Below, one piece after another: positions 5,610 to 6,311 of a stretch of DNA of 64,000 nt. Numbering within the stretch: position 1 is the stretch's first letter; every line of letters begins with the position of its first letter. The translations under genes were made by a program, and so were the position numbers. Location: assembly GCF_036417355.1 (NCBI RefSeq), contig NZ_CP143889.1:1736001-1800000 (forward strand). Reading direction: 5' to 3'. This DNA is from Akkermansia sp. RCC_12PD (GTDB lineage Bacteria; Verrucomicrobiota; Verrucomicrobiia; Verrucomicrobiales; Akkermansiaceae). The notes below the pieces were generated by a model. The model was not told the DNA's origin. It did no database searches and worked only from the letters and a program-made list of their open reading frames with translations.

Positions 5610-6311
5610 ATGGCCTCTCTGCTGCGTCCGTCCGGTGATTACCGCTCTCTTCTTTCCTACCAGAAAGCGGAACAGATTTATGATTTGACGTATTATTTTT
5701 GCAAAACATATTTGTCGTGCCGCGACAGGACAGTAGATCAGATGGTTCAAGCCGCCCGCTCAGGGAAGCAGAATATTGCAGAAGGCAAGGAGGCGGGGCT
5801 GACATCTCTGGAGATGGAGATCAAGTTGATAAATGTCGCCAGAGCCAGTCTGGATGAATTGCTGGTGGATTATGAAGATTTTTTGAGGGTAAGGAAGTTG
5901 CTCTTATGGGAGAAGGATTCCCGGGAAGCGCAGTTTGTCAGGAAAAAAGGGGCGGACAAGACCGCGGGACGGGATTATTTTCTGAATCTGGCCCGGACGC
6001 GGCCACCGGAAGTGATAGCCAATATGGCGATTTGCCTGATTTTTCAGGCCAAGTTTTTGTTAATGAGGCAGCTTGAGTTTTTGGAAGGGAAGTTTCTCAG
6101 AGAAGGAGGGATGAGGGAAAGGATGAGCCGGATGAGAAGGGCGGTGAGGGATAGGGGTGATAGGGGTGATAGGGGTGATAGGGGTGATAGGGGTGATAGG
6201 GGTGATAGGGGTGATAGGGGTGATAGGGGTGATAGGGGTGATAGGGGTGATAGGGGTGATAGGGGTGATAGGGGTGATAGGGGTAGGATGGGAATTTCCC
6301 ATGATCTCTAA
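5610..6311 (+). CDS. Four-helix-bundle suffix-domain protein with (Asp-Arg-Gly)15 tail
   Basis: 233 residues. Residues 10-160 match the four-helix-bundle family once linked to 23S rRNA intervening sequences: [54 protein letters not shown]. They are followed by the 'suffix' extension ([20 protein letters not shown]). After about residue 180 the protein becomes a pure Asp-Arg-Gly repeat encoded by fifteen 9-bp units, ending RMGISHDL. No signal peptide is visible, so the protein is probably cytoplasmic. The function is unknown; relatives are suspected to bind nucleic acid or protein. The repeat unit is a multiple of three, so unit loss or gain only alters tail length. Confidence 0.8.
6150..6284 (+). 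repeat. 9-bp tandem repeat (GATAGGGGT), 15 units, in frame
   Basis: Fifteen consecutive copies of GATAGGGGT without interruption, inside the 3' end of the four-helix-bundle gene. In the coding frame each unit is Asp-Arg-Gly, giving overlapping RGD tripeptides. All frames through it stay open on both strands (Val-Ile-Gly or Ile-Thr-Pro type repeats elsewhere), which creates spurious open frames. Perfect units suggest recent expansion by replication slippage. Confidence 0.98.

Follow-up and report, generated by a model that had tools for sequence, protein, structure and literature searches.

A translated 9-bp repeat array in Akkermansia as a probable arm of an S23-family gene-plus-repeat element

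The window (the whole 64-kb stretch of DNA analyzed here) contains fifteen perfect 9-bp repeats that are translated as the C-terminal tail of a four-helix-bundle protein. This repeat is probably one arm of an S23-family gene-plus-repeat element, in which the folded protein would recognize its own unit and would promote the upkeep, expansion and spread of the arrays. In many bacterial phyla, tandem arrays are linked to genes of this family, with a period specific to the subfamily and units that correlate with protein sequence, and gene-bearing genomes are enriched in them. The arrays are dispersed and differ between genomes in presence and copy number, and the protein has an S23 fold and is under purifying selection. 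The RGD-rich tail looks like a by-product of a repeat that has expanded into the 3′ end of its own gene.

The window gene and its orthologs

Tandem Repeats Finder, with a reporting threshold of a score of at least 50, returned two arrays in the window: one of period 9, with 15.0 copies and 100% matches of the unit GATAGGGGT, at 6150-6284 of the forward strand, and one of 2.2 copies at 23520. The former lies in an open reading frame of 233 amino acids (5610-6311, forward strand), in which it is translated as (DRG)15 C-terminal to a suffix domain (nucleotides 6006-6149) that ends at residue 180. Fifteen perfect units in frame at the gene end, a four-helix-bundle protein and the lack of a visible secretion signal had been noted in a first-pass annotation of this DNA, and each was confirmed, the last of them by eye (family scores and fold are given below). 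Two adjoining copies of GATAGGGGT occur at this site only in the whole genome (G000), as 14 overlapping matches, and ATRGGRNNNATRGGR matched 14 times in the window versus 0.14 expected. The array is taken as the sense arm of the element.

Just 5′ of the start codon stands a single GATAGGGGC unit (5599-5607, forward strand), identified from the sequence and, by eye, from the orthologs, which have AATGGGGCG, AATGGGACG or GCTGGGACG at this position. Behind the array, a palindromic hinge, ATGGGAATTTCCCAT (6288-6302), which forms a small hairpin when folded, has the sense units on one side and degenerate antisense nonamers on the other (ATCTCTAAA ATTCTCTAT and so on; 6303-6340, reverse strand, assigned by eye). 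Also by eye, the hinge reads GGGAATTCCC in three orthologs, with reverse-complement units behind it, and the antisense nonamers are better kept in the orthologs (ATCCCTAAA, ATCCCCATT). Those of the window are too diverged to fold with the array; a single hairpin with the downstream units was rejected for the window copy (fold z 0.13), as was a hairpin for the G008 copy (z 1.14), and both results count against the element reading.

Neighbors of the gene are a CatA-like gene and an open reading frame read by eye as an ABC-transporter ATPase. The CatA-like acetyltransferase gene (4942-5598, upstream) scores below the cut-off of every matching CatA model (best 151.7 bits versus 300). The window gene is not placed as a 23S rRNA intervening sequence, the rRNA genes of the window beginning only at 61734. 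There an rRNA operon occupies 61734-64000 (16S, tRNA-Ala, tRNA-Ile and the start of 23S). A paralog in the same genome (G000:C1:2904181) has no coding tail and is flanked by TGGACTTAA units upstream and by a long TGGACTGGG array on the other strand downstream.

Family matches were found in nine of the 76 genomes of the genus, eight of which have a close ortholog (85-100% identity, the window's own included). Unit runs were compared between species, with one genome per species, for the six orthologs that cross the region: 15 perfect units in the window (G000), 14 in G001, 8 in G008, 5+2 (GACAGGGGT) in G011, 4 in G004 and none perfect in G009. Contigs end inside the array in G044 and just before it in G046. 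Copy number, which had been expected to vary, is thus not constant among the orthologs, and the perfect units together with the variable copy number agree with the recent change that had been proposed. The tail is in frame in G000, G001, G008 and G004, is frameshifted in G011 by an 8-base unit between the two runs, and is nearly lost in G009. In the core, dN/dS is 0.05-0.25 (15 pairs among the six orthologs), which indicates purifying selection, and AlphaFold2 gave a pLDDT of at least 90 for 133 residues and of about 40-45 for the tail, which is predicted to be disordered. The protein is therefore kept and the tail is not. Relatives of the window gene carry other 9-bp units and therefore have other peptides or none in place of DRG.

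Tandem arrays at S23-family genes and elsewhere

The suffix (TIGR04258) set began with 129 loci. Named genomes (Planctomycetes, Bacteroidota, Desulfuromonadales, Acidobacteria, Nitrospirae, Mariprofundus and others) supplied 80 of them, the genus 19 of its 20 matches (L028, a 58-amino-acid fragment, being excluded) and a phylum sample of 387 genomes, 206 with the family, its best 30 matches. After L018, L067, L079 and L084 were dropped, in which no gene was found by the script, 125 loci were left. Period 9 scored at least 19/28 in 94 of 242 suffix-gene flanks versus 16 of 1221 control blocks; for every other period from 5 to 13 the count was 0 to 6 of 242. The flank test for period 9 was also run at a stricter setting. 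Without the window's own genus, period 9 was found in 85/209 flanks versus 15/1156 controls, and by source the counts were 69/156 for the named genomes, 16/53 for the phylum and 9/33 for the genus. At least one flank was positive in 72 of 117 suffix genes; the other 45 had no clear period-9 array on either side, which counts against the element reading.

Two-armed suffix loci (n = 36) comprised 22 inverted, 11 direct and 3 tied cases; note that some pairs pass the two-arm threshold by chance, as do 36 of 724 control blocks, and that many units of this family are half-palindromic, a caveat on arm orientation. Mirrored arms are partially evident in the suffix family. In-frame arrays in the 125 genes gave 6 C-terminal tails (five being those of the window gene and its orthologs), 4 internal loops and 20 N-terminal stretches, a count made without a shuffle control and with unresolved start codons in the N-terminal cases. 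The peptides include DRG, NGT, SDR/SDK, SSQ, SLK and others. Unit distance tracks protein distance (Mantel r 0.47, 0 of 2000 permutations) across 61 genes with strong arrays, near-identical pairs being excluded. Forty of the 61 units, a set from which near-duplicates were removed by hand, are alike beyond composition (3.37 versus 4.13 ± 0.03 mismatches), and by eye their common core is GGAC-like.

Plain S23 genes, which have no suffix, were planned as a control in which arrays were expected to be absent. On plasmids (22 of 29 plasmid records, mostly from cyanobacteria, with the near copies L327 and L338 in the set and with gene ends estimated in two records that had no annotated gene), the flanks of these genes showed period 7 in 31/44, period 8 in 6/44 and period 9 in 0/44. 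The 18 two-armed plasmid loci were inverted in 16 cases and direct in 2, with identical consensus units in 9. For IMG/VR, in which 28 of 33 loci were used (5 apparent duplicates were left out and a few near-duplicates remain), period 7 was found in 43/56 flanks versus 10/147 controls and period 9 in 2/56; 20 of the 22 two-armed loci were inverted and 2 direct. A Gemmatirosa locus has 8-bp units. Mirrored arms are clear in plain S23 genes, and unit length goes with protein subfamily because period 9 is found with the suffix versus period 7 in plain S23. Some plain S23 genes on plasmids are co-directional between CRISPR genes, as cas10-S23-cmr3 (L325, with inverted 8-mers) or cas6-S23-cas4 (L326, with inverted 7-mers, and L329, with direct 7-mers); other plain S23 genes are oriented against their neighbors.

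Arrays were also searched for by pattern in whole genomes. At least 3 matches to the genus pattern, (TGGACNNNN)x3, were found in 8 of 9 gene-bearing genomes versus 1 of 67 others; these statistics ignore kinship, and the counts include gene-adjoining arrays, most of those in G000. A hand count restricted to matches at a distance of over 1.5 kb from any listed gene copy gave 7 of the 9 gene-bearing genomes. Single matches in several gene-less genomes are GC-rich and, by eye, coding-like. For the phylum pattern, (ATRGGRNNN)x3, at least 5 matches were found in 27 of 206 gene-bearing genomes versus 4 of 181 others, with gene-adjoining arrays included and kinship again ignored. G365 and G214 each combine a single gene match with ten listed array places, those of G365 on ten contigs. 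Exceptions without a TIGR04258 match, which count against the element reading, are G091, with 84 array matches, and G370, with 39; the matches listed are dispersed in G091 and all in one array in G370. A lost gene, a missing contig or another protein are candidate explanations for these two. Also counting against this reading, the reversed control pattern was nonzero in some gene-bearing genomes (31 in G010 and 28 in G378).

The single contig of G148 has 58 matches at 16 places, one of which adjoins a zinc-ribbon copy of the gene with arrays on both sides; two more gene matches in this genome are unlisted, so some of the other array places may be near them. At L310 and L311, in the same genome, longer tandem repeats directly adjoin the nonamer arrays. 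Six gene-less loci, picked for their hairpin look, fold better than shuffled sequences (z -2.8 to -5.6). At one site with 98% identical flanks, G000 has about 2 units versus about 15 in G001, and at a second, matched by eye only, about 3 versus 12. G006 and G007 lack both gene and array at the window locus, where their neighboring genes are 93 bp apart (an empty site); the two neighbor genes are separated by about 12 kb in G005 and about 3 kb in G010. The boundaries of the empty site have diverged and show no target duplication, and no insertion with a clean duplication was found, which counts against the element reading.

Some repeats were recorded for their own features. L210 (G000:C1:1635397), a gene-less array, combines the two unit types of its genome, TGGACTTAA in sense and then ATAGGGGT-type antisense. 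L178 (G062:C48:3449-3535) is a run of some 10 GATAGGGAT units, apparently coding, from a genome that lacks the gene. TGGAC hairpins (L205-L208, L211 and L266), several of them with a similar spacer, lie just 3′ of terminator-like stems, which themselves stand behind a multicopy gene family with frames seemingly ending in YRYDF; the G000 copies of this hairpin at 2489 and 2587 kb look eroded.

Protein fold, proposed mechanism and alternatives

The window protein matches NCBIfam TIGR04258 (“4helix_suffix”) at 67.9 bits versus a cut-off of 40, over residues 133-180, and TIGR02436 at 31.4 bits versus 24; its score with Pfam 23S_rRNA_IVP (28.7) is below the cut-off of 33.8. The best VIA-align match was 2gsc from Xanthomonas (Z 16.6, 1.4 Å over 113 residues), described in a title cited in PMC10053308 as five four-helix bundles. 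It was followed by 2rld of the S23 family (Z 13.9), by the Avd chains 8ub7 (12.5) and 8ube (12.3) of a DGR ribonucleoprotein, and by an entry taken as unrelated (11.6); note that unrelated helical bundles can score as high as Z 13. Foldseek gave nothing in the PDB at E ≤0.001, and phmmer and an A2 profile gave only weak PDB matches. The fold matches support S23 kinship and make it plausible that the window protein binds nucleic acid. The role in nucleic acid binding once suggested for the charged tail would belong to the folded domain, and finds no support for the tail.

The HUH motif of RAYTs (IS200/IS605 type) is absent, with no histidine in an invariant or nearly invariant column of 43 aligned homologs (A2); nearly invariant tyrosines in this alignment are Y11, Y88 and Y149. 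No nuclease or transposase motif was recognized in the window protein, which counts against the element reading, and the PADLOC anti-phage models gave 0 families at E ≤1 for its core and for the paralog. In two homologs, at L317:1075-1764 and L161:2959-3765, the C terminus carries a zinc ribbon of the topoisomerase type (PF01396; 36.6 and 34.7 bits versus 32), a point in favor of the element reading, and a cysteine-pattern scan found one zinc-ribbon tail among the 125 suffix genes. A reading as phage or plasmid cargo was rejected: searches with the suffix protein gave nothing in 50,697 phage records, no relative in IMG/VR that could be confirmed, and one match in 72,556 plasmid records, on a 568-kb replicon of Prevotella nigrescens (period 9 at 26/36 in the downstream flank and 16 in the upstream flank).

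As proposed, the element would consist of an S23-family four-helix-bundle gene whose flanks bear tandem arrays of a short unit; in the full form, one flank would carry sense units and the other their reverse complements. In the suffix branch the unit is 9 bp; an array that extends into the reading frame therefore stays in frame and would be translated as a dispensable tail, here (DRG)15. The folded protein, and not the tail, would recognize its own unit in nucleic acid that is single-stranded or folded into a hairpin. It would read tandem units at its own spacing, and upkeep or copying would involve host enzymes and a catalytic step. Recognition would promote array upkeep, expansion and, by mobilization, occasional spread, as proposed for RAYTs with REP/REPIN sequences. 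More tentatively, S23/four-helix-bundle proteins may be propagators of repeats, a class not recognized before, in which array spacing is particular to each subfamily (7 bp for plain S23 proteins, 8 bp for some and 9 bp where the suffix domain is present) and mirrored arrays are built at the gene and elsewhere; the protein would then measure unit length, and the suffix would go with two more bases.

The main rival to this DNA-level element, which we consider unlikely and which may coexist with it, acts at the RNA level: mirrored arrays would base-pair within the transcript and enclose the S23 frame as in 23S rRNA intervening sequences, the protein would bind its own stem for autoregulation or excision, and spread in DNA would be secondary. 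According to PMC10053308, S23 proteins occur with 23S rRNA intervening sequences and are similar to Avd; the fold comparison ranked Avd chains from a reverse-transcriptase ribonucleoprotein near the top (Z 12.3-12.5), and the plain S23 genes that are co-directional in gene runs (two with inverted arms, L325 and L326, and one with direct arms, L329) fit as well. Gene-less arrays and array differences between genomes require a DNA-level process, however; moreover, the window copy has no stable hairpin, and other plain S23 genes run against their neighbors. That the repeats are the product of a reverse transcriptase acting like DRT10 or a DGR, with the S23 protein as an Avd-like partner, is scarcely credible. 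Although DRT10 appends 9-nt repeats (PMC12632851) and Avd shares the fold of the window protein, no reverse transcriptase was recognized beside the window gene among the open reading frames at 2500-10500, three of which were scanned with Pfam.

Ordinary slippage would make these arrays neutral short tandem repeats that stand beside the genes by chance, with the protein uninvolved. Perfect units, copy-number change and the arrays in genomes without a detected gene (G091 and G370) are compatible with it, but it predicts neither one period per subfamily (9 versus 7) nor inverted pairs around the gene, and neither the protein-unit correlation nor the enrichment with the gene; we hold it to be very unlikely. 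It is extremely unlikely that the DRG tail is itself functional as a polyampholyte, collagen-like or RGD segment. The frame is open through the tail in four orthologs (G000, G001, G008 and G004) and the Pfam “Collagen” model matched it above cut-off (36.6 bits), a match that we take to reflect Gly-X-Y periodicity only; yet the tail is frameshifted in G011 and nearly lost in G009, is absent from the paralog of its own genome, and is replaced by other peptides or by nothing in relatives. An RGD or collagen role was rejected because the tail is not conserved among orthologs and is predicted to be disordered, and the protein is not classed as a collagen-like or RGD adhesin, in that it has no conserved segment of this kind and, by eye, no export signal. 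The host contact through RGD raised as speculative by the first-pass annotation found no support, and its emphasis on the peptide was misplaced, since similar units also lie outside the frame and at gene-less places and the units of relatives differ.

Implications and comparison with known systems

Among the matches listed, no paper connects tandem arrays with S23, four-helix-bundle or TIGR04258 genes (subscription journals were mostly outside the search), and “four helix bundle suffix” gave no papers in the literature searched. We know of no clear job for S23/four-helix-bundle proteins outside DGR Avd and rRNA intervening sequences. Given one period per subfamily and a unit that follows protein sequence, these common proteins become testable as readers of short tandem arrays. 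The element is a candidate source of dispersed short tandem repeats in several phyla, and it provides one way in which such genes terminate contigs in draft assemblies. Caution is advised with repeat-coded tails like (DRG)n, which can be by-products of DNA elements and not adhesins. If a repeat-propagating class does exist, it would account for cyanobacterial heptamers and for S23 genes in 23S rRNA, and would supply the evolutionary background of Avd.

Cyanobacterial heptanucleotide STRR repeats are 7-bp tandem arrays, the origin of which is, to our knowledge, unexplained. Arrays of 7 bp bracket the plain S23 genes analyzed here, and presumably these belong with the STRRs. The proteins of 23S rRNA intervening sequences (TIGR02436, PF05635) share fold and family with the window protein, as seen in the matches to 2gsc and 2rld, but the window gene lies outside rRNA genes and has a 49-position suffix domain and 9-bp arrays. 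Avd, which is needed for retrohoming (PMC10053308), is alike in fold (Z 12.5 for 8ub7 and 12.3 for 8ube); no reverse transcriptase, template or variable repeat was recognized beside the window gene (open reading frames at 2500-10500, three Pfam-scanned).

RAYT/REP/REPIN systems (REPtrons) share with the present one a chromosomal gene with its own flanking short repeats, gene-less hairpin copies elsewhere and an apparent link between gene and repeat, although 45 of 117 suffix genes have no clear array. RAYT genes are flanked by their own REPs, with gene-less copies elsewhere in the genome, as described in PMC3116915 and PMC3733652. The S23-linked protein is, in contrast, a four-helix bundle without the HUH motif, and its repeats are tandem arrays of 7-9 bp units, whereas REPs are GTAG-tagged palindromes. 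The gene-array system thus resembles the known RAYT/REPIN type, but the link of S23 genes with arrays is apparently new as far as searched; it works like RAYT/REPIN and is not a member, because protein family and repeat design differ.
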